Virus record (IMG/VR): IMGVR_UViG_3300027917_000175
Coordinates: 1 to 23,946 of that record
Reading direction: 5' to 3' (one strand)
DNA length: 23,946 nucleotides
Source: a virus
Part shown: piece by piece, positions 4,351 to 19,942 of the stretch
How positions within the stretch are numbered: position 1 is the stretch's first letter
How the letters are laid out: each line of letters starts with the position of its first letter
The notes under the pieces: generated by a model
The model's database searches: none
Told to the model about the DNA's origin: nothing
The model's input: the letters and a program-made list of their open reading frames with translations, nothing else
Translations under genes and position numbers: made by a program

Positions 4351-7323
4351 ATGGCAAGAAGAAAAGAAGAAAACTACGTATTCGACGCTAGTGCCAAGAC
4401 TGTAAAAATTCCTGGTCACTTAAATCTTAATGACCTACTAACGATTATCAACGTTACTACTAACACGGTAATCTATAGTGTTAGTGAAGAGGGAAAGGGA
4501 GCAACCAGGGAACATTCTCACCCACTTCTCGGAACAGATCCAGACTTCCCATGGTCTATTGATGGAGACTGTACATTTCTTTTAGATTATGACACTACTT
4601 CAATGAGCGATACGGATGTCTTGCTCATTCTCGTAGAAGACGAAAGAAAAGGTCTAACAGTAAGACCTTATGAAGCTGCCGTTGATAGTATCGAAAGAAT
4701 TAAAGTATCACAAGGTCAGAACCTAATTGATGCTGACTTTGAATATGGTCTTCAGGAATCCAAATGGCAAAACATTGGTTTTAACACAGGATATCCTTCT
4801 TTCTCCGAAGCAACAGGGTTACCTTTAGTTGTTAATAGTGTAGATACTGATGGAGCAAACCCTTCTACTATTACAGTTGTAGTACAAGCAGGACAAGCTT
4901 TAGCAGCAGGTACTCCAGTTATTGTTACTGGATTGACTGATGGCGCTGTCTTAGCAGAAGGAGCTTATATTGTAGCAACTTCCAATGGATCTACAACTTT
5001 TACGTATACAGCGAAAGCACAAGTAACAGGAACAAATTTAGAAACACCATATACATCTATTAGAGAAGCTTCTCTATTTGATGGTTCTAGTTTAGCTATT
5101 GATACTTATCAGGCAGATGCTAGTCCCGGTACAAATGTAACAGCTAGCTTTATTCAACCGCATGGTCTTTTCCCAGGTTCTCCATTCATCTTGATTGATG
5201 ATAGTGCTGGACAGCAAATTGCCGAAGGTCCATTCTTCGTAAATGAAGTAATTAATTCTACTTCATTTAAGTATGATACTGGAGTAACACAAGACGGATC
5301 TTTAGTGACAACTGGATTGTCAGTATATGCTATCACCAATGCTACGTTTACTCATAGACCTTTTGATGGGGGTGTGTTAATTAACTCCTTCTATCCGTTT
5401 GCTGGGTTAGAAGCAAAGAGACAAACAAAACGTTATTTCAGATATCAGTCAGGTAAAGGAATTAATTTCTCCACAGGTACATTATTCTGTCCTGTTTATG
5501 ACGTTTCCTCCGCTACTTATAATGGAACTAATATATCGGTGACTACAGATATCCCCCACGGATTTCAAATAGGTGTTAAGGTAGCTTTATCTGGTATCGA
5601 TACTACTGGTTATAATTCAGACATTACTGATTATAATTATACTTTGTATGAAGTTACTGGTATTACAGACAGTGATACTTTTACCATTGGAGACTTTGGC
5701 GTAGGCGGAGTTAACGATGGATTGAATACCGGTATTCCCACCGGAACTGCAGTTTTGGGTCTTGAACCAAAAGTAGTTGCTCAAGAATGGAGGGGGGCAG
5801 CAACTAGGGTTGGTATGTTTGACGATGCCAACGGAGCATACTGGGAATATGACGGAGACAAACTATATGCTGTTCTCAGAAATTCAACAATTCAAATAAC
5901 TGGAAGAGTAGATCTAACACAGGGTTCGAATGAAATTGTAGGAACTGGCACGAGGTTTGGAGAACAATTTGTAGCAGGAAATAAAGTACTAATTAAAGGT
6001 CAAGTCTACGAAATTACAGATGTAGAATCATCAACTGTAATGCATGTTAATCCAGCATATAGAGGAGTTTCAATTAATAATTCCAAGATTAGTGTAATCT
6101 CAGAAACTAGAGTACCTTCAGATGTTTTCAATACAGATACTATCAATGGGCATGGTCCTTCTGGATATAATTTACATATTGATAGGCTTCAAATGATGGG
6201 TATCCAGTGGAGTTGGTATGGTGCTGGATATGTTGATTTCCAAGTAAGAGGACCATTGGGTGAATGGATTACCGCTCACCGTATGGCAAATGCTAACTTC
6301 CAAACTGAAGCTTACATGAGATCTGGTAACTTACCAGCAAGATATGAAATTGTAACTTCGTGTAGACATAGTAAAGTTCTATCTAATCCATCAACAGGAA
6401 CAGGAACAGGTGTTATTCAAGTAAGGAATGCCGAGAAATTATTCCCACAATCAGGAAAATTATTAATCAAGAGTGTACAGGGTGGACTAGGTTTAGTCAG
6501 CGAAATTGTTGACTATAGTGGAATTAGTGGCAATGATGTTACACTAACCGGAAGAGGATCTAGTTATACTCGTTTTGTTAATGGATCAAATAGAACATTT
6601 AGTGGTATTACATCAGCTCAAGATCATCCACTAAACAGTTCTGTACAATTTATTGATGCTAATATTGCTCCTCAAATTTCTCACTGGGGTTCTGCCGTAA
6701 TCATGGATGGTGGATTTACAGAAGATACTGGATTTAGATTTACTACATCTAGATTTGGTGTTACTATTGCTGCCGGTTCATCAGACACAGTTCTACTCTT
6801 TAGACCTGCTCCGGCGGTGAGTAACACAATATCCGGAGAAGTAGGAGAAAGAGAATTAATTAATAGATCAAGAGTTAACCTATCCGCACTTGAAATTATT
6901 AACATTGGTGTTCCTAGAAGCGTAGGTCAGCAAATTATTATTGAACCTAGAAGTATTGAAGTTACTGGTATTCTAAACCCATCCAATGTTGATCCCACAG
7001 CAATATCTTGGTCACCAGCTAATGCTATTCCATATGCCGGTGGTGGTGTTCAAACAGGATACCAACCATCATTCTCTCAATATAATGCCCCAGCAGCATC
7101 AACTCTTAATTTAGAGGGAGGAGAGATTCTATTTAAATTCATTACGTCAGATGAAACATCATTCTTTGATGTTTCTAACGTTAAAGAATTACAGAACTCT
7201 ATTGTTGGTGGAAATGGTTTGTTCCCCAACGGACCAGAGATGATTGGTTTTGTAGTTACAAACAAATCATCGGAGGATACTGTAGTTGATGTTGTATTAT
7301 CTTGGAAGGAGGCACAGGCATAA
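4351..7323 (+). CDS. Large virion appendage protein, cassette copy 1 (990 aa)
   Basis: No enzymatic motif is recognised; this is a beta-rich, Gly/Thr/Ser-rich structural-type protein. It is a clear paralogue of the 1069-aa protein at 14916-18125: both carry LIDADFEYG, HRPFDGGV, GLEAKRQTK, FRYQSGKG, DTINGHGPSGYNL, NLPARYE, IMDGGF and LFRPAP in the same order. Three short modules of the pattern HG-L-x2-G-x5-G-x5-NG-x-F-x-V (about residues 161-228, 262-312 and 388-450) resemble the FCCH-like repeats often annotated in cyanophage tail proteins. Arg is mostly AGA/AGG. It starts 10 bases after the collagen-like gene, with a weak GGAG at 4332. The C-terminus (WKEAQA) carries the ribosome-binding site of the next gene. 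The role, probably tail fibre or baseplate-attached appendage, is inferred from context. Confidence 0.8.
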   Translation: MARRKEENYVFDASAKTVKIPGHLNLNDLLTIINVTTNTVIYSVSEEGKGATREHSHPLLGTDPDFPWSIDGDCTFLLDYDTTSMSDTDVLLILVEDERKGLTVRPYEAAVDSIERIKVSQGQNLIDADFEYGLQESKWQNIGFNTGYPSFSEATGLPLVVNSVDTDGANPSTITVVVQAGQALAAGTPVIVTGLTDGAVLAEGAYIVATSNGSTTFTYTAKAQVTGTNLETPYTSIREASLFDGSSLAIDTYQADASPGTNVTASFIQPHGLFPGSPFILIDDSAGQQIAEGPFFVNEVINSTSFKYDTGVTQDGSLVTTGLSVYAITNATFTHRPFDGGVLINSFYPFAGLEAKRQTKRYFRYQSGKGINFSTGTLFCPVYDVSSATYNGTNISVTTDIPHGFQIGVKVALSGIDTTGYNSDITDYNYTLYEVTGITDSDTFTIGDFGVGGVNDGLNTGIPTGTAVLGLEPKVVAQEWRGAATRVGMFDDANGAYWEYDGDKLYAVLRNSTIQITGRVDLTQGSNEIVGTGTRFGEQFVAGNKVLIKGQVYEITDVESSTVMHVNPAYRGVSINNSKISVISETRVPSDVFNTDTINGHGPSGYNLHIDRLQMMGIQWSWYGAGYVDFQVRGPLGEWITAHRMANANFQTEAYMRSGNLPARYEIVTSCRHSKVLSNPSTGTGTGVIQVRNAEKLFPQSGKLLIKSVQGGLGLVSEIVDYSGISGNDVTLTGRGSSYTRFVNGSNRTFSGITSAQDHPLNSSVQFIDANIAPQISHWGSAVIMDGGFTEDTGFRFTTSRFGVTIAAGSSDTVLLFRPAPAVSNTISGEVGERELINRSRVNLSALEIINIGVPRSVGQQIIIEPRSIEVTGILNPSNVDPTAISWSPANAIPYAGGGVQTGYQPSFSQYNAPAASTLNLEGGEILFKFITSDETSFFDVSNVKELQNSIVGGNGLFPNGPEMIGFVVTNKSSEDTVVDVVLSWKEAQA
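7306..7312 (+). promoter_or_regulatory. Ribosome-binding site inside the end of the upstream gene (AAGGAGG)
   Basis: A perfect AAGGAGG lies 10 bases before the ATG at 7323 and encodes Lys-Glu of the upstream WKEAQA tail. The TAATG junction (stop 7321-7323, start 7323-7325) suggests translational coupling. It decides the start at 7323 over the in-frame TTG at 7302. Confidence 0.85.
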
Positions 7324-8828
7324 TGGCTTTAACAAGAGCACAAATATTAAATCAACCAACTGTAGAAGATCCTAATCAGATCAGCGGTGGTTCTATTACT
7401 CTAAGGGATACTACAGCTACTCCAGTAGAAATTTCATTTAAAGTAGCAAATACACAATCTGATCCTTATAATATTACATTCCCATCTACTATCGGAACCC
7501 CTGGGTTTAGTGGATATGTAATGACGTTTAGTGAATCTAGTGGAGAAATTACAGGATCGTTTGGTCCTGTTGTTGCCACCGCTGCTGGTACGGACGGACA
7601 GATTCAGTTTAATAATGCCGGTGTTACGGGTGCTACATCCACCATTGTTTATGATGATACTAATTTAGTATTTGATTTACAGTACGATGGTGCTAACAAT
7701 CCATCATTTTTGAGATTTAGTGATGATGGAGCATCAAATTATGCTCAGTTCCAAGCACCTGCTGACATCACTAGAGATTATAGTATTACATTACCAGCAT
7801 TAGTTCCAGGAACTAGTAACAACACAGAAGCAGTTGGTTATGTACTTAAGATTGCCTCTCATAGTGATCAGTCAGTTGTAGGAGCAACAACAGCTGTACT
7901 AGAGTGGGGTCCACCATTAACAGGTGATAATGTTTCCCAGGGTCCAGCAGGAAACATCCAAACATCAGACAACACTGGTGGTTTCGAGGATAAAACTGCT
8001 GGCAACTATTTAATCTATAACACAAATACATTAAACTTCCAGAATACTGCCGGTGAGATTCAGATCAATGGAGAACTGCTTTTAAATAGCACCACTCTTG
8101 GATCTACAGTTTTGAACTCTAGTCTTACTTCTGTAGGAACATTAACTGCTTTGACCGTTAATGCTGGTATTCAAGTCAACAATAGCATCACCACTCCTAC
8201 AGATACTGACTTACTGTTGTCTCCAAATGGAACAGGTGATGTTATTATTACTGCTGAAGGAGCTGCCGGTAAAGTTGATTTCCAAGATGCTCAAGGCACT
8301 CCACGCACTATTGGCGTTACTGTTCCTGCTACTATTGGAACTCTTGGTTATAATATAACTTTACCAGCAGAAGTAACAACTCCAGGTGACATGGTAATGT
8401 CATTTGCCAGTGACTACTCTGCTTCCTACATTGATAATAGAAAAACTGTTAATCTTGTTATTGATGGTGGTAACGAAGTTATCCAAAACGAACCACATGG
8501 ATCGTTAAGATTTGACGGTGCTTATACTATAACTGATTGGTATATTCTTTCTACCTTCCCTTATAATGTTCCAGACTCATTTGATGTTGTTATCACAAAA
8601 GGAACGCTTGCCGAATTAACTGCCGGAACAGCTCCAAGTGCTTTCAGTGGAACTTTGTCACTATCAAATGCTAATGCTGCTTCGGGAGTTACTACGGGGT
8701 GGGTTAGCAATACAATTGCTGATGGTGATATTTTATACTTCGAAGTTCAAAATCACGCAGCAGCTCCAACAGGAACAGCAATTCAAGCAACTATTAGTCT
8801 GACATTAGTACCAACAGCATTGACATAA
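7323..8828 (+). CDS. Tail-fibre-like virion protein, cassette copy 1 (501 aa)
   Basis: Start chosen at ATG 7323 because of the strong Shine-Dalgarno and the TAATG overlap. The N-terminus (MALTRAQIL) matches the paralogue at 18125 (MTLSRGEIL). The middle has repeated phage-fibre segments such as YSITLPALVPG and a GTDGQIQFNNAG element that the paralogue shares as GSTGQLQYNNAG. The last ~120 residues form a predicted beta-sandwich (YTITDWYIL to LTLVPTALT) that pairs with YTLTAWTLI to LRLVPA in the paralogue. This C-terminal domain may be a receptor-binding head, but that is inference. No catalytic residues are seen. It lies between the 990-aa and 235-aa proteins and is probably assembled with them. 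Confidence 0.77.
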   Translation: MALTRAQILNQPTVEDPNQISGGSITLRDTTATPVEISFKVANTQSDPYNITFPSTIGTPGFSGYVMTFSESSGEITGSFGPVVATAAGTDGQIQFNNAGVTGATSTIVYDDTNLVFDLQYDGANNPSFLRFSDDGASNYAQFQAPADITRDYSITLPALVPGTSNNTEAVGYVLKIASHSDQSVVGATTAVLEWGPPLTGDNVSQGPAGNIQTSDNTGGFEDKTAGNYLIYNTNTLNFQNTAGEIQINGELLLNSTTLGSTVLNSSLTSVGTLTALTVNAGIQVNNSITTPTDTDLLLSPNGTGDVIITAEGAAGKVDFQDAQGTPRTIGVTVPATIGTLGYNITLPAEVTTPGDMVMSFASDYSASYIDNRKTVNLVIDGGNEVIQNEPHGSLRFDGAYTITDWYILSTFPYNVPDSFDVVITKGTLAELTAGTAPSAFSGTLSLSNANAASGVTTGWVSNTIADGDILYFEVQNHAAAPTGTAIQATISLTLVPTALT

Positions 8829-8829
8829 C

Positions 8830-9537
8830 ATGGCGTTTTACGTAGATTTAACTAACGTAGGTGAAAATAATTACAGACTGGTAAGACCAAATGGATTAGT
8901 AGATATCCTTGACTTTACTACAACTTCTGGTGGAGTAACTGGTATTGATATTAGAGACCCTATTGATCCGTATCCCCAGTCCGGAACACCGGATTCTACT
9001 GGTCCCGATACCACATTTCCTATTACATTTACTGATAATAGTCAACAAATTGTTTATAATGGAAATGGAAACTCAGAACCTACTGTTACTGTTGATTTTG
9101 AAAATTTAAATGAAGTGGGCACTGCTCAAGGGGGTCCTGGTTTTCTAGATCTAGGTGCCGGAAATATTAATATCTTTAGAGTTTTTCTTGATATTAGAAC
9201 CGAGACGGGATTAATTCCAGCTGGCAATAGTAACACTGTAACTTTTTCATTAAATTTAAGAAACCCAGGATCTTTAGTAAACATTGCTTCATCGGGAACT
9301 CTTTCATGTACTCCTGCTAGCGGAATTAATACTTACTTTTTTCAAACATCTTTAGCTGCAGGAGTCACTGGTGGATATTACGGTCCTAACGTACAGTTAA
9401 ATATTACTCAATTGAGTGGTGGTGCTGGTGGATCAAAAAACAGGAGAAATTATTTAAACATCTACGCTGTTGACTGGCAAGCAAATACTAGAGACTTAGA
9501 AGTTTATAGACGATTTAACCAATTTGTGGTAACATAA
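8830..9537 (+). CDS. Beta-sandwich virion protein, cassette copy 1 (235 aa)
   Basis: No named family is recognised. The protein is rich in Thr, Asn, Gly and alternating hydrophobic residues, and looks like an all-beta capsid/tail decoration or fibre tip. Its C-terminal half aligns with the 171-aa protein at 19427-19942: both have a segment on the pattern VxLxI-x-Q-x-GGG-x-G followed by N-[YW]-[LI]-x-I-x-A-[VI]-DW (about residues 207-216 here). It starts one base after the TAA of the previous gene, with no clear Shine-Dalgarno, so translation probably depends on the upstream ribosome. Its stop codon lies inside a late-promoter-like octamer. It has an extra ~65 residues near the N-terminus compared with the paralogue. 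Confidence 0.72.
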   Translation: MAFYVDLTNVGENNYRLVRPNGLVDILDFTTTSGGVTGIDIRDPIDPYPQSGTPDSTGPDTTFPITFTDNSQQIVYNGNGNSEPTVTVDFENLNEVGTAQGGPGFLDLGAGNINIFRVFLDIRTETGLIPAGNSNTVTFSLNLRNPGSLVNIASSGTLSCTPASGINTYFFQTSLAAGVTGGYYGPNVQLNITQLSGGAGGSKNRRNYLNIYAVDWQANTRDLEVYRRFNQFVVT

Positions 9538-9540
9538 ATA
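9533..9540 (+). promoter_or_regulatory. Late-promoter-like octamer CATAAATA
   Basis: Seven of eight bases match the T4 late consensus TATAAATA. It overlaps the stop codon (TAA 9535-9537) of the preceding gene and ends 26 bases before the ATG at 9567. A start of transcription would fall before that gene and separate the enzyme genes from cassette 1. Confidence 0.6.
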
Positions 9541-9566
9541 TTAAAAAATGAGTTGAATTCTATTTC

Positions 9567-10568
9567 ATGATTGAAAATTTTGCTAAATTAGCCATTGAGA
9601 ATGGTGGTGACATTACTCCATTAGTAGTTGACTCTAAGCATACCGGTGGATTAGGTCTTACCAATTGTTCTATTTTACCAATTAATGACAAGTTGTATGT
9701 CAATCTACGGAATGTAGAGTACACCTTGTTACATGCAGAAAAGGTAAAGTATGCTCATCCATGGGGTCCTGTAGTTTATGTACACCCAGAAGATGATTGG
9801 AAGCTTAGAACTAATAATTTTCTTGGTGTAATTAATGAAGATCTATCAGATTTTAATTACTATTCGAAAGTTGATACTTCTGAATTAGATAAAGACCCAC
9901 TGTGGGAATTTGTTGGTTTAGAGGACGCAAGAATCTGTCACTGGGATAATAAAGTGTTTCTGTCTGGTGTCAGAAGAGACACTACTACTAACGGTGTTGG
10001 TAGAATGGAGCTGTCTGAGATTGAAGAAGAGAATGGATCATTTAAAGAAATCTCTAGACAAAGACTACCAATTCCAGGAGAAGCAGTTCCTGATACAGGA
10101 AAATCCTACTGTGAGAAAAACTGGATGCCTGTTGTTGATTTACCTTACACATACGTAAAATGGTGTAATCCAGTAGAGGTCGTTAAATATAATCCTGAGA
10201 CTAAATTAACTGAACAAATTTATCTTGGAAAAAACAAATTAGATATTGATTTTGATTTTCGAGGTGGATCACAGGTAATTCCATATAAAGAAGATTATAG
10301 AATAGCTCTGTGTCACGTAACTAGTTTATTCAAGACAGAGACGGGAAGAAAGAATTGTACTTATAGACATCGTTTTATTGTTTTTGATAAAGATTGGAAT
10401 GTACATGGTTACTCTAAAGAGTTCAACTTTCTAGGAGGACATGTTGAATTTTCTTGTGGTATGTGTTTCCATGAAGGAAATTATTTAATTACTTTTGGTT
10501 TTCAAGATAACACATCATTCTTGCTAAGAGTACCAGAAACATTTTTTGATTCGTTTATTGAGGTTTGA
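9567..10568 (+). CDS. GH130/GH43-like beta-propeller protein, possible glycan-acting enzyme (333 aa)
   Basis: The spacing of motifs fits five-bladed propeller proteins of the GH130/GH43 type: GLEDARI (residues 117-123, compare the GxEDPR motif), EKNWMP (183-188), RGGSQ (232-236) and a closing FSCGM...ITFGFQDN (295-315), which resembles the F-x-[SC]-G-[ML]...YG-x-xD element of GH130 enzymes. It has no signal peptide and no membrane segment. GH130 proteins act on mannosides, but the catalytic Asp is not secure here, and related phage proteins are often left unassigned or listed with glycosyltransferases. It is followed after two bases by a TPR/methyltransferase gene, a pairing that suggests joint work on a surface or virion glycan. 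Function is inference; the fold assignment is moderately secure. Confidence 0.62.
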   Translation: MIENFAKLAIENGGDITPLVVDSKHTGGLGLTNCSILPINDKLYVNLRNVEYTLLHAEKVKYAHPWGPVVYVHPEDDWKLRTNNFLGVINEDLSDFNYYSKVDTSELDKDPLWEFVGLEDARICHWDNKVFLSGVRRDTTTNGVGRMELSEIEEENGSFKEISRQRLPIPGEAVPDTGKSYCEKNWMPVVDLPYTYVKWCNPVEVVKYNPETKLTEQIYLGKNKLDIDFDFRGGSQVIPYKEDYRIALCHVTSLFKTETGRKNCTYRHRFIVFDKDWNVHGYSKEFNFLGGHVEFSCGMCFHEGNYLITFGFQDNTSFLLRVPETFFDSFIEV

Positions 10569-10570
10569 TC

Positions 10571-11824
10571 ATGGATAAAAAATTTAAAGATGTTCTTTTA
10601 AAATTTGCAAAAGATCCAGAAGATGCCATGAATAATTTTGACTTGGCATATGAATATCACACTAGAGGACATACAGCTTCTGCTTTTAGTAACTACTTAA
10701 GATGTGCTGAAAGAGCAAAGGAAGATGAGTTAGCATATGAATCTTTGTGTAGGGCTTCCTATTGTTTTACCTCACAAAAAAGAAGAGAGTTTACATCTAA
10801 AGCTTTTCTAAAACATGCTCAGATTATTTTACCAAAGAGACCAGAAGCGTATTATCTTCTCGGCGTACATCATATGAATAGAAAAGAGTATGCTGAAGCT
10901 CATGTTCAGTTTACTCTAGCACTAGAATTCTGTGACTTTGATTGTAAACCGTTAATGACTTTTATTGGATATAAAAGTAAAGAACATCTCTTGTATCAAA
11001 AATCAAAAACAGCATGGTTCTGGGATAAAAACCACGAGACTAGACAAATTTTACGTGACCTAAGTGCTCCGGGAGTATGGGAAAAACTAGACGAAGAAGA
11101 TCAAAAAGCTGTACAAGATGACATCAATCGTATTGGTCTTCTTGTTGATAGTGATGCTTTTGTGAAGTACGAAGAAAAAGATTTCGTTAATCTAAAATAC
11201 AAGTTCCCCGATGCAGAAAAAATTAAAGAGAATAGATCTCAAGTCTTTCAAGACATGTTTGTTCTCTACATGACAGAGGGTAAGAAGAAAGGAACTTATT
11301 TCGAAATTGGATCTGGTCCTTCTCACTTCGGAAGTAACACTGTATTGTTAGAAGAATTTGGTTGGAAAGGTATTGGTGTTGAATCAAACCCAATTTATGT
11401 GAACGAGCATAAATCTAGAAGAAAAAATTTAGTTTTGTTTGATGATGCCCTAAAGCTTAACTACGAAAAAATATTGGATACTCATTTCGATACTACGGAG
11501 ATTGATTACCTTCAACTAGATATTGAACCAGCAATCAATACATTCCAATGTTTGATTTCTATTCCGTTTGAAAAATATAAATTCGGAGTTATCACATACG
11601 AACACGATGACTACATTGATTTTACTAGGTCTTTTAAAAATAAATCAAGAAGATATCTAAAATCTTATGGTTATGAACTGGTAGTTGCTGATGTATCTCC
11701 GGATGGAAAAAGCAGTTATGAAGATTGGTGGGTACATCCAGATTTAATAAATAGAGAAGTTATTGAATCGATTAAGTCCACAGACGGGACTATCAATATT
11801 AAACAATTAATGCTGAGTGAATAA
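10571..11824 (+). CDS. TPR domain fused to FkbM-type SAM-dependent methyltransferase (417 aa)
   Basis: The N-terminal ~125 residues are helical repeats of TPR type; the clearest unit is about residues 91-119 (AYYLLGVHHMNRKEYAEA). A linker follows, then a C-terminal methyltransferase of FkbM type from about residue 230: YFEIGSG (243-249) as the SAM-binding glycine loop, GVESNP (E271) as the acidic residue of motif II, and YLQLDIEP (D317-E319) as motif IV. FkbM-family enzymes O-methylate sugars or small molecules; here the substrate is unknown and the TPR may dock to a partner, perhaps the neighbouring propeller protein. Start chosen at ATG 10571 because GAGG at 10560-10563 is seven bases upstream; the in-frame TTG at 10565 overlaps the previous stop. 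It is soluble, with no signal peptide. Confidence 0.78.
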   Translation: MDKKFKDVLLKFAKDPEDAMNNFDLAYEYHTRGHTASAFSNYLRCAERAKEDELAYESLCRASYCFTSQKRREFTSKAFLKHAQIILPKRPEAYYLLGVHHMNRKEYAEAHVQFTLALEFCDFDCKPLMTFIGYKSKEHLLYQKSKTAWFWDKNHETRQILRDLSAPGVWEKLDEEDQKAVQDDINRIGLLVDSDAFVKYEEKDFVNLKYKFPDAEKIKENRSQVFQDMFVLYMTEGKKKGTYFEIGSGPSHFGSNTVLLEEFGWKGIGVESNPIYVNEHKSRRKNLVLFDDALKLNYEKILDTHFDTTEIDYLQLDIEPAINTFQCLISIPFEKYKFGVITYEHDDYIDFTRSFKNKSRRYLKSYGYELVVADVSPDGKSSYEDWWVHPDLINREVIESIKSTDGTINIKQLMLSE

Positions 11825-11826
11825 TT

Positions 11827-12012: not shown

Positions 12013-12024
12013 TACTCGTCTAGA

Positions 12025-12396
12025 ATGAGAACGGCAATTCCAGTTAATCTAAGTGTAGATCAAGGGGCAGATTTATTTGTAGAATTTAATCTTAGAGATG
12101 AAAATTCTAACTATATAAATTTGCTGGGATACACTGTAACGGCAAAGTTTTCTAGGAGTTATCAATCGGTAACTCCTACTTATGCTTTTAACGCTCAGGT
12201 TCCTGTAGGTAATACGGCAGAAGGTTTGGTTACTTTATCTTTAAGTGGCACTACAGAAGATACAGTAAACAATATCCCAAAAACAGGAGATCTTAAAGCT
12301 GGAAGATATTTATACGATGTTTATCTCACTTCCCCAGTGGGTGATGTTGACAAATACTTAGAAGGTATTTTGACTGTAAGTCCTGGTGTATTATGA
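12025..12396 (+). CDS. Putative small virion protein with Ig/BppU-like beta fold (123 aa)
   Basis: No firm family call. The order of elements (a hydrophobic N-terminal strand, ADLFVEFNLRDENSNYINL, a central TVTAKF strand, then LKAGRYLYDVYLT and a closing EGILTVSPG) is that of small beta-sandwich domains found at the N-terminus of phage fibre and baseplate upper proteins, in which 'dAGrY.ydv' is typical. It overlaps the next gene by four bases (ATGA, 12393-12396), so the two are translationally coupled. Probably a structural or adaptor protein of the tail. Confidence 0.62.
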   Translation: MRTAIPVNLSVDQGADLFVEFNLRDENSNYINLLGYTVTAKFSRSYQSVTPTYAFNAQVPVGNTAEGLVTLSLSGTTEDTVNNIPKTGDLKAGRYLYDVYLTSPVGDVDKYLEGILTVSPGVL

Positions 12397-12677
12397 GTAA
12401 GTATCAGTTAGATTTAATTGGAGAAAAGGTCAAAGATATGAGCACGTATAGAATATCAGTCACTGTAAAAGATACTGAGATTAAAAGGGTAGTAGATATA
12501 AATGCTTCACCAAATTCTATATCAAATTTATCTGATGTAAACACGATTGATCGTCAAAATAATTATCTCCTGGTGTGGAATGAAGCTACACAATTACATC
12601 AATACATTCCTGCTTCACAAGTTACTGACGTATCCGACGATGTACTTGATGACACGTTAGACTACGGAACATACTAA
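12393..12677 (+). CDS. Small hypothetical protein ending in DYGTY (94 aa)
   Basis: Family not recognised. The N-terminal half is mixed charged/hydrophobic (TYRISVTVKDTEIKRVVDI). The second half contains SNLSDVNTI and YLLVWNEATQLHQYIPA, a short beta hairpin of the kind seen in fibre proteins ('LVWN...W'). The C-terminal DYGTY matches DAGTY and DAGTF at the ends of the next two proteins. The start overlaps the previous stop (ATGA). Its own stop codon lies within an ACTAAATA motif. Confidence 0.62.
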   Translation: MSKYQLDLIGEKVKDMSTYRISVTVKDTEIKRVVDINASPNSISNLSDVNTIDRQNNYLLVWNEATQLHQYIPASQVTDVSDDVLDDTLDYGTY

Positions 12678-12680
12678 ATA
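12673..12680 (+). promoter_or_regulatory. Late-promoter-like octamer ACTAAATA
   Basis: A weaker match to TATAAATA (six of eight) that keeps the TAAATA core. It overlaps the stop codon at 12675-12677 and ends 32 bases before the ATG at 12713. Confidence 0.42.
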
Positions 12681-12701
12681 GATATAGAAATATTATCTAT
12701 T
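12677..12701 (+). other. AT-rich 8-bp inverted repeat in a leader
   Basis: AATAGATA (12677-12684) and TATCTATT (12694-12701) are perfectly complementary with a 9-base loop. The hairpin would lie between the promoter-like motif and the AAGG Shine-Dalgarno at 12702-12705. It lacks a U-run, so it is not a typical terminator, and as all A/T except two G-C pairs it would be weak. Confidence 0.4.
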
Positions 12702-12712
12702 AAGGTAAATAA

Positions 12713-14143
12713 ATGGCTGCACCAACACTAAGATTTAAAAGAGGTACTACTTCTGTAGCATCTTCAGTTGCTGTCCCCAATACAGTAGCGGGTGAACCTA
12801 TTGTTCGTTATAACACCGATCAAGGCAAGTATGCTGGAATCACCGAATTTTATGTTGGTGATTCCGGAGCAACAACTTCTAAGTTGGTTGCTGACTCAGG
12901 AGCAACTGCTGCTGCTAATGAAATTCTAAGAGCATTTACTGTTGAAACTGCTGATGGCAATGCTGACGGAGTAGATGCTAGCCTTACTTTAACCAGTCAA
13001 GATATCACTGGTTCTGCTATTACCGTCCAACCACCTAGCAATCTTGCTGCTGATTACACCTTAACTTTACCAGCTGATGATGGAGATTCAGGTCAAGTTC
13101 TACAGACAGATGGTTCTGGTGTTCTAACTTGGGTAGCACAAACTGCTGGATTCTCTGGGTTTGATATTGCTGCCGATACTGGCACTGCCGAATCTGTTGT
13201 TTCGGCAGATACAATAACCTTCACGGGTGGAACTGGTATTGATACAACAGTAGGTGCTACTAATACCATTACTATTGCTATTGATAGCACTGTAGTAACC
13301 ACTGCTGATACTGGTTCAGTTACCAGCGCGATGATTTCTGATGGCACCATCGTAAATGATGACATCAATGGTTCTGCTGGTATCGCTTTCTCTAAGTTAG
13401 CGTCATTAACAGGTGGTAATATTCTTGTTGGTAATGGATCAAATGTTGCTACTTCAGTAACTGCTTCTGGTGATGTTACAATCAGCAATACTGGTGCTTT
13501 CTCGGTTAACAGTGTTCAGGCAAATTCGGTTGCTCTTGGAACAGATACTACTGGTAACTATGTTCAGTCTGTAACTACTGGTGCTACAGACTCTGGTCTT
13601 ACAGGTGGTCAAACTGCTGGCGAAGGAACTACTTCTGCTCTTGCTCTTAAGAACATTGCCAATTTTACCGCTAACAAAGTTCTTAAGTGGGATGACACCA
13701 ACGGTCAGTTAACTGATAGTCTTATTACTGACGATGGAACTACAGTAACTATTGGCGGTAACTTAACTGTTACTGGAACAACTACTACAGTTAACACAAC
13801 CAATACAGTAGTTTCAGACAGATTGCTTGAGTTAGCAAACGGTACTACAGGCAACCCAACCGCCGATTCTGGTATTGTAATTGAGCGGGGCGATGATGAT
13901 AACGTCTTTATTGGATTTGACGAAGGATCTAATTTATTTGTTGCTGGTACTACTGCTGGTGATGGTACAGCTACGGATCTTGCTCCTACTCCTATTGCTT
14001 TCTTAGCACTTCAGTACAATGTAACTGATGGTGCTGGAACTAATGAAGCGGTTGTAAGTTATCTTCTTGCTGCTTCTGCTCCCGATGGTGCTACTGATGG
14101 TAGATATCTCCAAAACATCACAGTTGACGCTGGCACATATTGA
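12713..14143 (+). CDS. Tail-fibre-like virion protein with Mtd_N-like N-terminus (476 aa)
   Basis: The N-terminus (MAAPTLRFKRGTT, then GEPIVRYNTDQGKY and FYVGDSG) has the layout of the short domain found at the head of phage receptor-binding proteins such as the major tropism determinant. The body has repeated fibre elements: YTLTLPADDGDSGQVLQTD (shared with the protein at 18125), a SVTSAMISDGTIVNDDINGS segment of the type 'aik..sIv..dI..gaI', and LTVTGTTTTVNTTNTVVSD, followed by DRLLELANG, which is widespread in marine phage fibres. It ends in DAGTY. AAGG at 12702 is seven bases from the start. It stands alone between two promoter-like motifs. Probably a trimeric adhesin or fibre; no enzyme motif is visible. 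Confidence 0.74.
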   Translation: MAAPTLRFKRGTTSVASSVAVPNTVAGEPIVRYNTDQGKYAGITEFYVGDSGATTSKLVADSGATAAANEILRAFTVETADGNADGVDASLTLTSQDITGSAITVQPPSNLAADYTLTLPADDGDSGQVLQTDGSGVLTWVAQTAGFSGFDIAADTGTAESVVSADTITFTGGTGIDTTVGATNTITIAIDSTVVTTADTGSVTSAMISDGTIVNDDINGSAGIAFSKLASLTGGNILVGNGSNVATSVTASGDVTISNTGAFSVNSVQANSVALGTDTTGNYVQSVTTGATDSGLTGGQTAGEGTTSALALKNIANFTANKVLKWDDTNGQLTDSLITDDGTTVTIGGNLTVTGTTTTVNTTNTVVSDRLLELANGTTGNPTADSGIVIERGDDDNVFIGFDEGSNLFVAGTTAGDGTATDLAPTPIAFLALQYNVTDGAGTNEAVVSYLLAASAPDGATDGRYLQNITVDAGTY

Positions 14144-14149
14144 TAAATA
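14142..14149 (+). promoter_or_regulatory. Late-promoter-like octamer GATAAATA
   Basis: Seven of eight bases match TATAAATA. It overlaps the TGA stop at 14141-14143 and ends 20 bases before the ATG at 14170. It would serve the 67-aa gene and cassette 2. Confidence 0.6.
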
Positions 14150-14169
14150 GATTTATATGAGATTTTGGT

Positions 14170-14373
14170 ATGAATGAAGTTCAAGTAGATTATGCTCTTC
14201 TAGTAGAGGTTATGACTGAAGAACTTCATTCATACCAGAGTCAGATCATTGCAATGAAAGCAAAGATCAAGGCATACGACAGGGCACTCACGGAAGCGTT
14301 AAATAATGCTTCGCCCAAAACCACATCCCGTAAAAAGTCTGTAGATACAGATAAGGATGCTGGTACATTTTAA
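14170..14373 (+). CDS. Small helical protein ending in DAGTF (67 aa)
   Basis: Family not recognised. Residues 5-45 look like one long helix (EVMTEELHSYQSQIIAMKAK), probably a coiled coil; a basic Ser/Lys linker (KTTSRKKS) follows, and the protein ends in DKDAGTF. The size and the helical N-terminal part resemble the coiled-coil protein at 11827, but the sequences do not clearly align. The C-terminal motif links it to the two preceding proteins. Possibly an assembly factor for the fibre proteins encoded on both sides. Confidence 0.62.
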   Translation: MNEVQVDYALLVEVMTEELHSYQSQIIAMKAKIKAYDRALTEALNNASPKTTSRKKSVDTDKDAGTF

Positions 14374-14384: not shown

Positions 14385-14391
14385 ATCATCA

Positions 14392-14904
14392 ATGGCAGCA
14401 CCAGTAGTACGGCTGAGAAGATCAGCCACACAAGGGGCAGTACCCACAACTGCTCAACTCGATTTAGGCGAGGTAGCAATTAATACTTTTGATGGGAAGA
14501 TTTTTCTCAAGAAAGACCAGAGTGGAACAGAAAGTATTGTAGAAGTATTAAGTGATAGCATTACAGAGTTTAGAATTCTGGATGATATCTCTAGTGGATT
14601 CAATGGAACCACAACTAACTTCACTCTGTCTTACAATTCAGGAACCAACTTTGTTAATACAGAGATTACGACAGCAGCAAGATTGCTAATCTCTGTTGGT
14701 GGTATTATTCAGGAACCATCAGCCACAAAAGGATTTACGATTTCTGGTGGTACTGATGCCACTACAGATCCACTTATAATTTCATTTGTAGAAGCTCCAG
14801 CAACGGGACAAACATTCTGGGGAATTGCTTTTGGTGCTTCTGCTGCTCCTACAACAGGTGGTATCAGTGAAGAACTAGCAATCGCTTATTCAATCGTATT
14901 TTGA
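14392..14904 (+). CDS. Short fibre protein, cassette copy 2, with GGIIQEP C-terminal domain (170 aa)
   Basis: Two parts. Residues 1-58 form an Mtd_N-like head (MAAPVVRLRRSATQG, then LDLGEVAINTFDGKIFLKK), similar to the start of the protein at 12713. Residues ~60-170 are homologous to the last ~120 residues of the collagen-like fibre: ARLLISVGGIIQEP, ISFVEAPATGQTFWGI and a final hydrophobic strand. It therefore occupies the same cassette position as the collagen-like gene but without any collagen. It starts 18 bases after the previous gene and is followed after 11 bases by the 1069-aa gene, with GAGG at 14903 serving that gene. Likely a short fibre or the adaptor base of one. Confidence 0.75.
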   Translation: MAAPVVRLRRSATQGAVPTTAQLDLGEVAINTFDGKIFLKKDQSGTESIVEVLSDSITEFRILDDISSGFNGTTTNFTLSYNSGTNFVNTEITTAARLLISVGGIIQEPSATKGFTISGGTDATTDPLIISFVEAPATGQTFWGIAFGASAAPTTGGISEELAIAYSIVF

Positions 14905-14915
14905 GGTATTAGATA

Positions 14916-17900
14916 ATGGCACAGATTAAAGAAGAACTATACAGATTTATTCCAGTAGATAACTCACTGGCAGCACCCAACACGGGTAAAGGTAGTATTA
15001 CGATTCCAGGTCACAGAGAGACTAGGAATGTAGTAATGATTGTAAATGCCACCCGTGGCGTTATTATTGCTAGTCAATTTGATCCTGCAAAAGGATGGAC
15101 TAGGGAACACGGGCACGTCTATCCAGGAGACCCGGATTATCCAGATCCATACTTTCCTTTTGCTCTAGATGGTACTTGTACTTATATTCTAGACTATGAC
15201 ACTTCACAGATGTCTCAAAGTGATCAGTTGTCAATTTATATTGATGACTACGTTCAAGGCGAAAAGATCCGTCCTTGGGATTTTGGAACGGATGCCATTG
15301 AACGTATGAGGGTGTCAAACCCTCAATCACTTATTGACGCTGACTTTGAGTATGGTATTCAAAATACTAAATGGCAAACATTTGGTTCTAATCGTAGAAA
15401 TCCTTCGTTCTATGAAGTTGCTGGTCCACCTCTAACAGTTAGTGCTATTTCTTCGGATGGTGGAACTCCATATTCGTTAGTTACAATTACAGTTGCTGCT
15501 GGAACTGGATTATCTGCTGGTACTCCAATTTCAGTTACTGGAACTACTGATGGTCTAGCTGATGGTCTATTTATTATTGAAAGTGATAATAGTCCAACTT
15601 TGAGTACATTCAGTTATAGAGCAAAAGGAGTAATTGCTTCTGGTTCTATTCTTACATCATATAATGTCGTAAAGAAAGGTGGTGTTTATACTGGTGCTGA
15701 ATTGCCAGTATCAGCTATTGCTTTAAACAATCCAAGTAATGGATTTGTTCAACTTACATTCTCAGAAGCACATTCTTTAGTTCCTGGTTCTCCTATTACT
15801 GTATTTGATACCGGAGGAAATACAGATTGGGCGGGTGTATTTTTTGCAAACAATATTGTATCACCTACAGTTATTCAGTATCAAGTTAATAATACAGCAA
15901 CGGCATTAACTGGCACTCCTACATTAGGGAACATTACGGTCTATGCTCGTAATGATAGCTTCTTTATTCATCGTCCATTTGATGGTGGTGTTTTTATGGG
16001 TCCGCTATTACCAGTTCATGGACTAGAAGCAAAACGCCAAACAAAGCAGTATTTTAGATATCAATCTGGTAAAGGTTTCCTATTCTCTACTGGTGCTTTA
16101 CTTAATCCAACATTTGACGTAACTTCAGTAACTTATAGTAGTGGAACTGGAGAAGTTACTATCACAACAGAATTTCCACACGCTTTACAAACTGGATCAA
16201 CTATTTTCCTAGAAGGTATTGCTAGCGATAATTATTATGGTTCATATATTGTCAAATCAATATCTTCCGATAAAGTATTTGTTGTTGATGCTTTATCCCC
16301 TGCTCCTACTGATACCACAGCTGTACTTGCTGAGCAACCTAGAATTACTGTAACTAACTGGACTGGTGCTGTTATTCGTACTGGTATGTTTGACGACCAG
16401 AATGGATTATATTGGGAGTATGACGGGCAGCAACTTTATGCCGTGAAGCGTTCCTCTACATTCCAACTTGCCGGAACGGTTTCACTTTCAAATGGTTCTA
16501 GAGTTGTTACTGGAACCAATACAAGATTTTTATCAGAACAATTACAGGTAAATGATCTTGTTGTTATTCGTGGTCAGTCGTATCGTATTACTGGTATTAC
16601 ATCAGATACTGCTTTAACTGTGTCTCCTGAAAATAGAGGGACAACAGCAACTAATGTTAAAATGTTAAAGACGATTGACGAAAGAGTTCCCCAAAAGAAC
16701 TTTAACTACGATACCATTAATGGGCACGGTCCTTCTGGATATAACCTTCGTTTATCACGAATGCAGATGTGGGGCATTCAATTCTCCTGGTATGGTGCTG
16801 GATTTTCTGACTTCCTAATTCGTGGTCCATTGGGATCATTTATTAAAACACATCGTGTTGCTAATCATAACGTAAATTTTGAAGCATATTTGAGATCAGC
16901 AAACTTACCAGCTCGTTATGAAGTTGATAATTGTTCTGCTTATGCAAGGATTTTGGTAGATACTGGAACAGGAACTTCCGATCTAATATTAAATCGTACT
17001 GGAAGATTTCCAGAACCAATTCCTGGATATCCAGGATACGTTTTACTTTCTGGTATTGAAAATGGTACTTCTACAATGCACCACGAAGTTATTACATATA
17101 CAGGAAAGAGTTCAGAAAATATTGTAACTCAAGGTGATAATTATGTTGTTGGTGAATTTGTTGAAGCAGCAGATAGTAATGGTTTTGTTATTGAAGTTAC
17201 TTCAGTAACTGATACTGGTGGTATTGCTAGCTATAGACTTTTCACTGGAGGAACTGGATATAGTACTGGTAATGTAACAATGAGTGTTGCTGCCGCTAGT
17301 GGAACAACTGCTGCTGTAATCAATGTGACTTCAGTTTCCAGTGGAGCAGTAACTTCTGGTCCAGGAAGACCAGCTTTAACTGGTATTACTAGAGCACAAT
17401 CTTATAGTCAGTTCATTGCGGGTCAAACAAGAACATTCCAAGCAGAAACTACAGCAGTCAATTTTGATGCTGGTTCTACTGCTATGTTATTGAATACCAC
17501 ATTCTCCCCAACCATTTCACACTGGGGTTCATCTGTAATTATGGATGGTGGATTTGATAAAGACTTAGGTTTCTTATTTAACTATTCCGTGAGTGGTGTA
17601 ACGGTGAATGGAAACACTGGTTCTACCCTACTTCTATTCCGTCCCGCTCCTTCAGTTTCAAATACATTACCAGGAGAATTTGGAGAAAGAGAGGTTGTAA
17701 ATCGTTCTCAAATTACACTCAAAAATATTGAAGTTAATAATATTACTGGTAGAGAATATCAAATTTATGCTATCGTTAATCCATCAAATATTGGAGCAGC
17801 GACTTGGGTTAATGCTAATGTTCAGACAGTTGGCACAGCATCTCTTTTCCAACCATCATTTGCTCAGGTTGCAACTCAGGGTGGTACTTTAGTTGGAACA

Positions 17901-18125
17901 ACAAATGATCCGATAGATGGAGAAATCCTATTCCAGTTTATTGGTACATCAGCTGGTTCTGAGACATTTGATCTCACTGGTTTAAAAGAAGTTCAAAACT
18001 CAATTATTTCTGGACCAGGAACATTTCCTGATGGTCCAGAAACAATTGCTCTCTACATTGTAAATAATAACAACCAGTCGGGTGACTTTGATATTGTTCT
18101 TTCTTGGACGGAGGCACAGGCATAA
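14916..18125 (+). CDS. Large virion appendage protein, cassette copy 2 (1069 aa)
   Basis: Paralogue of the 990-aa protein at 4351 along nearly its full length: LIDADFEYG, HRPFDGGV, GLEAKRQTK, DTINGHGPSGYNL, RGPLG, NLPARYE, SHWGSSVIMDGGF and LLLFRPAPSVSNT recur in order. FCCH-like modules lie at about residues 176-245, 268-325 and 403-455, followed by a GT-x-VxGTNTRF segment. Unlike copy 1, it has an insert at about residues 735-815 (GDNYVVGEF, then GGTGYSTGNV) of a type also seen in gp13 and gp14. Arg is largely CGT, whereas copy 1 uses AGA. It ends in WTEAQA, which encodes the next gene's ribosome-binding site. The role, tail appendage or fibre base, is inferred. Confidence 0.8.
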   Translation: MAQIKEELYRFIPVDNSLAAPNTGKGSITIPGHRETRNVVMIVNATRGVIIASQFDPAKGWTREHGHVYPGDPDYPDPYFPFALDGTCTYILDYDTSQMSQSDQLSIYIDDYVQGEKIRPWDFGTDAIERMRVSNPQSLIDADFEYGIQNTKWQTFGSNRRNPSFYEVAGPPLTVSAISSDGGTPYSLVTITVAAGTGLSAGTPISVTGTTDGLADGLFIIESDNSPTLSTFSYRAKGVIASGSILTSYNVVKKGGVYTGAELPVSAIALNNPSNGFVQLTFSEAHSLVPGSPITVFDTGGNTDWAGVFFANNIVSPTVIQYQVNNTATALTGTPTLGNITVYARNDSFFIHRPFDGGVFMGPLLPVHGLEAKRQTKQYFRYQSGKGFLFSTGALLNPTFDVTSVTYSSGTGEVTITTEFPHALQTGSTIFLEGIASDNYYGSYIVKSISSDKVFVVDALSPAPTDTTAVLAEQPRITVTNWTGAVIRTGMFDDQNGLYWEYDGQQLYAVKRSSTFQLAGTVSLSNGSRVVTGTNTRFLSEQLQVNDLVVIRGQSYRITGITSDTALTVSPENRGTTATNVKMLKTIDERVPQKNFNYDTINGHGPSGYNLRLSRMQMWGIQFSWYGAGFSDFLIRGPLGSFIKTHRVANHNVNFEAYLRSANLPARYEVDNCSAYARILVDTGTGTSDLILNRTGRFPEPIPGYPGYVLLSGIENGTSTMHHEVITYTGKSSENIVTQGDNYVVGEFVEAADSNGFVIEVTSVTDTGGIASYRLFTGGTGYSTGNVTMSVAAASGTTAAVINVTSVSSGAVTSGPGRPALTGITRAQSYSQFIAGQTRTFQAETTAVNFDAGSTAMLLNTTFSPTISHWGSSVIMDGGFDKDLGFLFNYSVSGVTVNGNTGSTLLLFRPAPSVSNTLPGEFGEREVVNRSQITLKNIEVNNITGREYQIYAIVNPSNIGAATWVNANVQTVGTASLFQPSFAQVATQGGTLVGTTNDPIDGEILFQFIGTSAGSETFDLTGLKEVQNSIISGPGTFPDGPETIALYIVNNNNQSGDFDIVLSWTEAQA
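18110..18114 (+). promoter_or_regulatory. Ribosome-binding site inside the end of the upstream gene (GGAGG)
   Basis: GGAGG ends 10 bases before the ATG at 18125, the same spacing and the same place in the EAQA tail codons as at 7306-7312. The TAATG junction (TAA 18123-18125) is also identical. It decides the start against the in-frame TTG at 18104. Confidence 0.82.
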
Positions 18126-19420
18126 TGACATTATCTAGAGGCGAAATTTTAACAGATCCTGTTGTTAGGGGCGTTAGTACAAGTGGTGCCAAAATTAAAT
18201 TGGAGGATGGAGATGAGAGTGCTTATGTCCAACTAGCATCTCCTGATGTTGTAACGACATCATACACTCTCACTTTACCAGCTGATGCTGGAACGAGTGG
18301 ATATGTATTACAAACCAATGGATCTGGGACTACTACTTGGCAACCAGTTACAGCATCACCTGCTGGTAGCACAGGACAACTTCAGTATAACAATGCTGGT
18401 TCATTGGGTGGAACATCAGGTATTACCACTGATGGTTCTAATCTACTGATTGATAGTCAGGGTGATTTAAGAATGGGAGATGGTACAAACTATCTTGCTT
18501 TCCAAGCACCTGCTTCAATTGGTGCTGATAGAACATATACCCTACCATCTACGATTGGTTCAGCAGGAGACCAATTATTGATTGCTACTTCTCCTACACC
18601 AACAGCAACAGCTGCTACATTGGTTTGGGGTACGGCAACAGGAACTACACAATCTCCTGGTGGTGATACCGATGGTTCCGTTCAATACAATAGTGCCACT
18701 GTATTTACTGGTGAGACAGCATTCAAATACAATGATAGCACCAATACATTAACTGTAGAGAATATAACTGGAACTGGAACATTTACTTCAGGTTCTGTAG
18801 TTGTAGATAACATCACCATCGACGCCAACTCTATCACGGCAACAAATACAAATGGCAATGTAGATCTTGCTGCTGATGGCACTGGAGATGTAAGAGTATT
18901 ATCTAACAAACCATTAAGTTTGATGGATAGTGATAATAGCGATGGCGTTAGTTTAATTGCTGATCCAACTACCACAGCATATACTCTTACATTCCCGGCA
19001 TCAATTGGAGCAGAAAATGAAGTTCTAAAGATTGATGCCACAGGCAATCTTGACTTTGTATCTAATGTAAGAACTCTCAACTTTGCCATTGGTGATGGTA
19101 GTGGTTCTGTTACAACTGGTGTTAAAGGTCACGTTGTAGTTGATGCTGACTATACTCTCACTGCTTGGACTTTGATTGGTCAGACAACTGGTGCATTTAA
19201 CGTGACTGTATCTAGTATTTCTCCGGGTGCATATCCTCTCACATCTGTCCCGACTTATACCAGCATTGTAACGCCATCAATGACAACTGGACAATACGCT
19301 ACACAAACAACAGGATTATCAATTAGTATTTCTGCTGGTGATGTGTTGGAATTTGATGTTACAGCAAATGCTGGATCACATACTTTTGCTACTGTAGCAC
19401 TTCGTTTAGTACCCGCTTGA
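18125..19420 (+). CDS. Tail-fibre-like virion protein, cassette copy 2 (431 aa)
   Basis: Paralogue of the 501-aa protein at 7323, about 70 residues shorter. Shared landmarks in order: MTLSRGEIL at the start, YTLTLPADAGTSGYVLQTN, GSTGQLQYNNAG, NYLAFQAPASIGADRTYTLP, GNVDLAADGTGDVRV and the C-terminal beta-sandwich from RTLNFAIGDG to LRLVPA. The start at ATG 18125 is fixed by the TAATG junction. The YTLTLPAD element is also in the 476-aa protein at 12713, so three proteins of this window draw on the same fibre-repeat stock. The C-terminal domain is a candidate receptor-binding part. Confidence 0.76.
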   Translation: MTLSRGEILTDPVVRGVSTSGAKIKLEDGDESAYVQLASPDVVTTSYTLTLPADAGTSGYVLQTNGSGTTTWQPVTASPAGSTGQLQYNNAGSLGGTSGITTDGSNLLIDSQGDLRMGDGTNYLAFQAPASIGADRTYTLPSTIGSAGDQLLIATSPTPTATAATLVWGTATGTTQSPGGDTDGSVQYNSATVFTGETAFKYNDSTNTLTVENITGTGTFTSGSVVVDNITIDANSITATNTNGNVDLAADGTGDVRVLSNKPLSLMDSDNSDGVSLIADPTTTAYTLTFPASIGAENEVLKIDATGNLDFVSNVRTLNFAIGDGSGSVTTGVKGHVVVDADYTLTAWTLIGQTTGAFNVTVSSISPGAYPLTSVPTYTSIVTPSMTTGQYATQTTGLSISISAGDVLEFDVTANAGSHTFATVALRLVPA

Positions 19421-19426
19421 TAAATT

Positions 19427-19942
19427 ATGGCAACTGAAGTTTTAATTCCCGATGCTATCACAACACAGGTAAGTTTATCGGGAGCATTGACTGATATCGA
19501 TGAAGGAACAACTTCACCTGATGCTAACTGGTTAACAAATACTGAAAACAATGGAAATACTAACGAATTAATTGTTACTTTTCCAACTCCATCAGGTACA
19601 TTGAATTCTGGAGCTGATCTTCAAACTATTCGTGTATGGATTCGTAAAACTGGAACCAACAACCCACAATATGCTTTATCCGTACTAGAAAATGGAACAC
19701 CGGTTGCAACTACTAACCTGACTGTAGCTTCAACAACAGGCGAACTTGATAGTTTTACTTGGAATGCTGGAAATTTGGCAAATGCTGACGGGGCTGGTGT
19801 TGAGGTTCGTATTTTACAAACTGGTGGTGGAACGGGAAGAGCTGCTAATCGAAGTTGGATTGAGATAGGGGCAATTGATTGGGTTGCTGATTATACGGTT
19901 CCTGTTGGTGGGGCAGCAGTGTCTCAAGCAATCTTCATCTGA
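19427..19942 (+). CDS. Beta-sandwich virion protein, cassette copy 2 (171 aa)
   Basis: Closes cassette 2 just as the 235-aa protein closes cassette 1. The two align in the C-terminal half: VEVRILQTGGGTG, then RSWIEIGAIDW (about residues 142-152). It is all-beta by composition, with no cysteine-rich, enzymatic or membrane features. It starts six bases after the previous stop, without a Shine-Dalgarno, so reinitiation is likely. Its TGA stop overlaps a GATAAATA motif that precedes gp13. Family unknown; probably a tip or decoration protein. Confidence 0.7.
   Translation: MATEVLIPDAITTQVSLSGALTDIDEGTTSPDANWLTNTENNGNTNELIVTFPTPSGTLNSGADLQTIRVWIRKTGTNNPQYALSVLENGTPVATTNLTVASTTGELDSFTWNAGNLANADGAGVEVRILQTGGGTGRAANRSWIEIGAIDWVADYTVPVGGAAVSQAIFI

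Follow-up and report, generated by a model that had tools for sequence, protein, structure and literature searches.

Two old paralogous cassettes of putative fibre-tip genes, probably functional, paired on one phage genome fragment

The window analysed in this study is the entire linear IMG/VR record IMGVR_UViG_3300027917_000175 (23,946 nt). It carries two four-gene series, A at 3-9537 and B at 14392-19942, whose products are candidate components of adhesion fibres. Each series runs from a fibre gene (gene 0) through a protein of ~1000 aa (gene 1, family-1) and a fibre-like or related gene 2 (family-2) to a small beta protein (gene 3, family-3). A preliminary description of this DNA had proposed a duplicated cassette with common order, landmarks and junctions. 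All eight open reading frames (ORFs) were found in the described order and were homologous gene by gene. The junctions were conserved as well: genes 0 and 1 were separated by 10 bases in A and 11 bases in B, genes 1 and 2 overlapped in TAATG in both series, and genes 2 and 3 were separated by 1 base (A) and 6 bases (B). The genes of the two series and their parts were as follows.

3..4340, + strand: A0, giant collagen-like fibre with Gly-X-Y repeats, 5' end beyond the record; matches PHROG tail fibre families
3963..4340, + strand: A0 C-terminal adaptor domain, homologous (blastp) to B0 residues 59-170, ending ..LVNSLIFGV
4351..7323, + strand: A1, 990 aa, ~1000-aa family-1 virion protein (phrog_5838, E 2.2e-206), with a predicted lectin-like core and inserted small domains
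7323..8828, + strand: A2, 501 aa from its ATG, fibre-like; C-terminal part resembles phrog_10330 (E 3.1e-4)
8830..9537, + strand: A3, small beta protein related to B3 (profile against profile)
14392..14904, + strand: B0, 170-aa fibre; head at residues 1-58, adaptor at 59-170
14916..18125, + strand: B1, 1069-aa family-1 protein, paralogue of A1 (phrog_5838, E 2.1e-220)
18125..19420, + strand: B2, 431-aa paralogue of A2 (blastp)
19427..19942, + strand: B3, small beta protein, predicted carbohydrate-binding-module-like sandwich (AlphaFold2, Foldseek, VIA)

By blastp, A1 and B1 matched at 38% over 1105 columns (E reported as 0), A2 and B2 at 30% over 513 (E 2.6e-36), and the A0 C-terminus and B0 at 38.5% over 109 (E 2.6e-13); for A3 and B3 only 35 residues were aligned (E 5.6e-4). 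Compared with 100 shuffles per pair, Z reached 224 for A1/B1, 28 for A2/B2, 19 for the A0 C-terminus/B0 and 3.5 for A3/B3. The last pair stood at the edge in pairwise comparison, with a real score of 54 against 53 for the best shuffle, and its relationship became clear only when profile was aligned against profile (93.7% probability, E 1.9e-7, 126 columns). All four pairs are thus related and, because of the blastp, shuffle and profile scores, the similarity is more than the merely local likeness from common fibre repeats that the preliminary description had allowed for. Between A0 and B0 it was confined to the last ~110 residues, the collagen and the B0 head lying outside the match. Both genes had been described as GGIIQEP-ended fibres, one with giant collagen and the other with a Mtd_N-like head. 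The motif occurs in both, but inside the C-terminal domain and not at the very end; the collagen of A0 was borne out, and the Mtd_N-like head of B0 had no support from Pfam, where a search with B0 at E up to 10 gave no Mtd match, although HMMER's filters drop most weak matches. Nothing in Pfam reached the cut-offs for A1-A3, B0-B3 or the last 122 residues of A0, the only part of A0 searched.

A1 and B1 each matched phrog_5838 strongly, in two stretches and over most of the protein; this family is labelled in PHROGs as virion structural protein and nothing more. Identity between A1 and B1 was 51-68% in core segments (106-160, 331-400, 466-515, 591-665, 746-835), 25-40% in the stretches between them (161-330, 401-465, 516-590, 666-745) and 37-49% at the two ends, with segment borders picked by the analyst from the A1 model. 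Among 118 columns conserved at >=95% in 63 other family-1 members, A1 kept 114, B1 113 and both 109, so both copies look maintained and functional. That series A is a passenger or a decaying extra copy is therefore very improbable: it would suit the survey described below, where each record had one copy, but besides the conserved columns the frames of A1, A2 and A3 are open, A0 is open to the record's end, and an A clade of four phages persists. Identity to close kin was 61-68% for A1, 44-51% for A2 and 34-41% for A3 in series A, and 72-73% for B1, 73-77% for B2 and 48-49% for B3 in series B. Gene 3 was the least identical in both series, as expected of a receptor-facing tip, while B2 was as close to its kin as B1.

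The AlphaFold2 model of A1 (pLDDT, predicted local distance difference test, 86.5; pTM, predicted template modelling score, 0.87) was built from 65 sequences, the structure alignment taking 63 of 93 non-redundant locus rows (loci L004 and L006 were among those left out). In VIA-align its best match had a Z of 13.1, with 180 residues aligned at 3.4 Å and spanning 122-787. Most rows were C-terminal domains of glycoside hydrolase (GH) family 43, sialidase lectin domains and GH7, and they included the receptor-binding domain of TM4 gp23 (Z 12.1). A1 is accordingly predicted to form a lectin-like sandwich into which small domains are inserted, "lectin-like" being the analyst's reading of the match names. 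Compared with viral models, A1 resembled proteins of uncultured phages and, less well, those of haloarchaeal tailed viruses (HFTV1, HHTV-1/2, HGTV-1) and giant viruses. The B3 model (pLDDT 84.5, pTM 0.81, 10 sequences) had 18 Foldseek matches at E <= 0.001, the best being a CBM36 (carbohydrate-binding module family 36) at 1.5e-4; CBM36, CBM35 and CBM61 scored 1.5e-4 to 5.2e-4, and Cry proteins and cyclases also appeared. Its top VIA row was an intraflagellar transport protein (Z 10.6), with which the CBM rows were tied among many rows at Z ~10, and B3 is predicted to be a carbohydrate-binding-module-like sandwich. For A1 and B3 alike, a matching fold would not by itself establish function. Searched against the PDB by sequence, gene 2 had no match; family-1 showed a 65-position stretch like the F2-pyocin side fibre (E 1.3e-7) and two further weak matches (E 0.047 and 0.42).

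These results bear on a different view of family-1, in which it is a conserved baseplate or neck connector, contact with the host is left to gene 3 or the fibres, and series A is a second connector in its slot. The higher conservation of the core segments and the bare PHROG label agree with such a role, but it fits poorly with the predicted lectin-like fold of A1 and its match to a phage receptor-binding domain, and with the fibre adaptor found ahead of gene 1 in A/B-group members with a readable upstream gene. We judge the connector unlikely, though it is the strongest of the competing explanations.

The two series occupy different positions in the genome, which are fixed by the following neighbours.

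9567..10568, + strand: o5, sugar-enzyme-like gene behind series A
19969..23463, + strand: gp13-gp14-gp15-gp16 homologues anchoring the B locus (phrogs 211, 460, 227, 445)

Series B lies directly before the gp13-gp14-gp15-gp16 homologues, which stand in T4 order. Between the series lie o5, o6, a 61-aa gene, o7, o8, the 476-aa fibre-like o9, and o10. In L008, L112 and L202, a gene of ~2200 aa directly precedes the homologue of the 61-aa gene, followed by o7-o10-B0, and L009 has the last 1616 aa of such a gene at the same place. From its 67-aa gene to the homologue of the 61-aa gene, L008 has two giant genes, of 2918 aa and ~2200 aa; the former had tail-fibre PHROG matches and the latter (2-6658) no PHROG match. 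The corresponding 2209-aa frame in L202 (439-7065) carries short family-1-like modules. L109, an independent metagenome contig, has on the left of the slot gp6 (phrog_438), a 2691-aa phrog_358 protein and a 66-aa gene. The slot itself contains a fibre gene, ~2500 aa long as judged by the coordinates of two loci that overlap, then a 113-aa gene, the collagen fibre, A1, A2, A3, o5 and o6. It is followed by the 61-aa gene, o7-o10 and a B0 broken off by the contig end after residue 120. Since L008-type contigs have giant genes where L109 has series A, series A appears from these gene orders to be an alternative filling of that slot, that is, an optional block, with series B as the resident version. 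Furthermore, L109 agreed with the window at 91.6% DNA identity over 2172 bases through o8-o10-B0. A chimeric assembly of two phages would be conceivable for an IMG/VR fragment whose left end is rich in collagen repeats, but we give it hardly any credence, because L109 is collinear with the window from the collagen fibre to the start of B0, series A and the connecting genes included. The preliminary description had also considered that the two series might never occur together in relatives; L109 has series A and then B0, though only its start. A scan with o6 found L109 again and nothing further, and a scan with B0 found L202, another L008-type contig, which breaks off within B0 and lacks a full family-1 copy.

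Trees of family-1 were built from 35 and 23 rows chosen by the analyst from 139 full-length ORFs, plus the cut L035. In the careful 23-row tree, A1 grouped with L035, L108 and L109 (100/100) and B1 with L008 and L009 (100/100). A recent duplication within the genome was rejected, the tree with A1 and B1 as sisters being 601 log-likelihood units worse (p 1.9e-34 in the approximately unbiased test). The deeper split was moderately supported, at 91/94 for the A side (including L115 and L144) and 80/80 for the B side; in the quick 35-row tree its support was 92 and 97. On this phylogeny A1 and B1 represent different old lineages, not copied within this genome. The cassette had been called duplicated, which is right insofar as two paralogous cassettes are present, but not in the sense of a copy made here. 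In L028 and L029 a B-side family-1 protein is followed by o5, as after series A. Forcing seven rows of o5/A context into one group was rejected (p 3e-8; the group was defined after the tree had been seen). Given these two observations, the cassettes or their proteins have moved between contexts. Gene 3 in L028 (10329-11063), L029 (14234-14968), L112 (14225-14959) and L113 (9286-9996) is replaced by a ~240-aa protein, for which no relation to B3 was detectable.

A survey of relatives, as the preliminary description had suggested, found one cassette per record to be the rule and the window alone with two full copies. In 89 distinct records searched whole (19 + 40 + 32, two repeats; most of them fragments), one family-1 gene each was found, a few cut by the contig end, and any other match was below 100 residues or belonged to that gene. 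A family match was present in 163 loci and in the window; of these 164 sequences, 161 carried a single full-scoring copy, two carried none and only the window carried two, some loci overlapping or repeating a contig. The survey is a lower bound, as the scans kept the best 80 loci among the matches listed. Moreover, nine records with the A-side/o5 context or a similar upstream region were tested (G016, G017, G019, G021, G027, G056, G057, G062, G079), and eight of them were without gp15 and so stop before a possible series B. B-alone contigs extend far upstream without series A (42 kb in L008, ~57 kb in L030, ~34 kb in L112). Among annotated phages, B1 matched 49 places in 46 records and A1 65 places in 61 records. 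The second place in S-BM3 is part of one 2087-aa gene; second places also occurred in MW202722, OQ999401 and MH319766. A tblastn search with B2 against the phage records gave no match. In IMG/VR, 595 of 600 pattern matches to family-1 were confirmed among the matches listed, so that it is present in several hundred contig stretches or more, yet its PHROG label says virion structural protein and nothing else.

The setting resembles a known kind of island. In pelagi- and cyanomyophages, the host recognition cluster (HRC) is a variable island that runs from VrlC to the neck gene gp14 and includes fibres and glycosyltransferases; collagen repeats, concanavalin A and tropism-determinant domains are mentioned for structural proteins of its operon (PMC7029224). 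Likewise, the fibre genes of the window form an island ending at neck genes, with gp14 directly after gp13; it differs in that series B stops before gp13, while the paper names gp14 as the border, and two paralogous fibre-tip cassettes in one island are not described in the part of that paper considered here (PMC7029224). The left border would fall in a part beyond the window; in L109, gp6 and the phrog_358 protein, which may be VrlC, stand ahead of the slot. Judging from L109, series A would then lie between baseplate-wedge genes and neck genes, in the HRC island. Our results point to a cassette pair inside this known kind of island, where relatives were seen with one. In S-PM2, Syn1 and S-RSM4 a similar block (T4-GC 865-864-863 in S-PM2, 865-1089-863 in Syn1) has two large structural genes and then a ~1100-aa family-1 protein ending WTEAQA, like the window. 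However, these genomes have one copy (S-PM2 and S-RSM4 searched whole; Syn1 one place by tblastn), away from gp13 and with no gene 2 or 3 directly behind, and the preceding gene has the tail ..NFNA.R..[FY]G. S-CAM1 and S-BM3 have family-1 parts at the B locus, in giant proteins directly before gp13, but there is a single copy, which long inserts divide within a protein of 1673 or 2087 aa. The tailspikes of Ackermannviridae are enzymatic and joined via their N-terminal parts. Their branched multi-tailspike complex is alike in principle, with several receptor-binding units per particle (PMC11414711). The window has instead parallel fibre/tip cassettes with different heads. Titles and abstract openings on marine phage fibres and multiple receptor-binding proteins described no paired fibre-tip cassettes, although a description may exist in print.

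Among the loci and the window (some loci overlap), the adaptor domain was detected in 23 ORFs and the B0-type head in 86; head and adaptor occurred together in 7 of the ORFs examined and separately elsewhere. In L030, for example, a 427-aa protein has the head and another one, of 153 aa, the adaptor, and three genes lie between the two, so B0 looks like a collapsed, minimal fibre. The B0 head is of the type PVVRLRRS..LGEVAINT, whereas the collagen fibres of L035, L108 and L109 have the head RLLSNRVKV..EPNLG, from which the A0 head is read as of another type. In 56 of the 89 cases counted, the ORF ahead of gene 1 ended in a short hydrophobic tag (..AYSIIFGF-like), compared with 2 of 927 other ORFs; 6 of 95 rows were excluded, their upstream ORF being unreadable, and the pattern was written after part of the tails had been seen. 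The strict pattern was failed by B0 itself, L028/L029 and several others, though their tails look alike. Deep family-1 members have a different tail (..YPF.P.DI.LG) at this place. o8, o9 and o10 (12393-14373) share the C-terminal motif D-x-G-T-Y/F (LDYGTY, VDAGTY, KDAGTF), and relatives show similar endings; this is possibly another C-terminal assembly tag. As adaptor and tag type are common to both series, and a B-side protein stands in the o5 context in L028/L029, the A and B tips might compete for one docking site, so that a particle has one of them or a mixture. We consider this alternative use rather improbable: the adaptors have diverged to 39% and the heads differ, which favours separate sites and self-pairing.

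Taking together the homology, the gene order, the separate old lineages, the conservation of both copies, the different heads and the predicted folds, we regard the pairing in the window as real, unusual and probably functional, its two fibre-tip cassettes being old paralogues. It appears fairly probable to us that they represent two adhesion fibres whose anchors differ and whose glycan-binding tip complexes are paralogous, in a host-recognition island. The N-terminal head would anchor the gene 0 fibre to the virion, assuming an N-terminus-in orientation; the fibre's C-terminal adaptor and hydrophobic tag would dock on the lectin-like ~1000-aa gene 1 protein, which would carry gene 2 and the carbohydrate-binding-module-like tip of gene 3. 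Series B would be the short resident fibre module beside the neck genes and series A an extra, collagen-long module in the variable slot. Because the A head differs in type from the B0 head, the two fibres would be expected at different virion sites of the same particle, presenting two different glycan-binding tips, presumably to different receptors. The preliminary description had pictured two adhesin complexes on one scaffold, which agrees with the paralogous cassettes and their common C-terminal and tip scaffold, but the sharing starts only at the adaptor and the N-terminal anchors differ.

Several points weigh against this interpretation. No record except the window has both series complete, as L109 ends within B0. 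In L055 (G027), which lies outside the A/B clade, a single cassette is followed by o5 and, 8 kb further on, by the neck genes, and a second copy is absent. The head of the window's own A0 lies outside the record and its type was taken from relatives, and with L028/L029 combining a B-side protein and the o5 context, locus and type are not strictly tied. None of the 737 Foldseek matches of A1 in the PDB reached E <= 0.001, and the most conserved parts of family-1, its core segments, could mean a purely structural role. The case was made from sequence and predicted models. More tentatively, one may picture a plug-and-socket system, in which fibres with a conserved tag accept interchangeable family-1/2/3 tips, two at once, collagen-long at the baseplate and short near the neck, with two-stage recognition of two glycans and tips moving between loci over evolution; we think it possible, but doubtful. 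Two diverged copies in one phage serve as natural internal controls, separating scaffold (core, adaptor, tag) from receptor-facing parts (gene 3), and dual receptor use in marine T4-like phages becomes a testable question.

Further features concern the expression of the two series.

7306..7325, + strand: A1/A2 junction, with GGAGG within the codons of the EAQA C-terminus and the TAATG overlap
9534..9540, + strand: ATAAATA late-promoter-like site, between series A and o5
14143..14149, + strand: ATAAATA late-promoter-like site ahead of o10-B0-B1-B2-B3 (similar site in 7/7 relatives examined)
18108..18127, + strand: B1/B2 junction, same device as A1/A2
19942..19948, + strand: ATAAATA late-promoter-like site, between series B and gp13 (similar site in 10/10 relatives examined)

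Five annotated starts (o5, o7, o10, gp13, o20) had ATAAATA 10-45 bases ahead of them. Five of the seven plus-strand sites were so placed, against 0.2 expected (p 5e-5, for random placement without control for stop codons or A+T-rich gaps). The motif was not over-represented across the window (9 found, 7.3 expected; 9 or more in 32 of 100 shuffles), and its placement alone is unusual. In relatives, several of them near-identical, a looser pattern (any base + TAAATA, <=60 bases) preceded gp13 in 10/10, o10 in 7/7, o5 in 5/5 and o7 in 6/6; elsewhere it was found before gene 1 in 2/12, gene 2 in 0/6, gene 3 in 0/8 and B0 in 2/5. Since such sites precede these genes and rarely genes 1-3, the gene after each series probably starts a new late unit. 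At the gene 1/2 junction, the codons for the EAQA end of gene 1 contain a hidden ribosome-binding site. Where the start pattern overlaps (TAATG or ATGA), 17 of 18 members use GAG as the Glu codon, compared with 13 of the 77 members lacking such a pattern.

Relatives of o5 follow a family-1 cassette in L028, L029, L055, L108, L109 and L144. o5 had no Pfam match of its own and no PDB match by sequence; its homologue in L055 had a weak GH130 match below the cut-off, and one of its two phage homologues is annotated as beta-mannosyltransferase. o6, behind it (within 9567-11824), had tetratricopeptide repeat (TPR) and FkbM methyltransferase matches below the cut-offs. For gp15, the 15 best of 2023 records were Synechococcus/Prochlorococcus phages (61-65%). 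The virus is thus probably a tailed relative of marine cyanobacterial phages and, as gp15 is closest to cyanophages, its host is probably a picocyanobacterium. gp13 and gp14 (19969-22216) have 357 and 390 aa, compared with 275 and 314 in L008. The extra part of gp13 (~residues 81-164) matched other virion proteins in PHROGs, which suggests a mobile beta module inside neck proteins.

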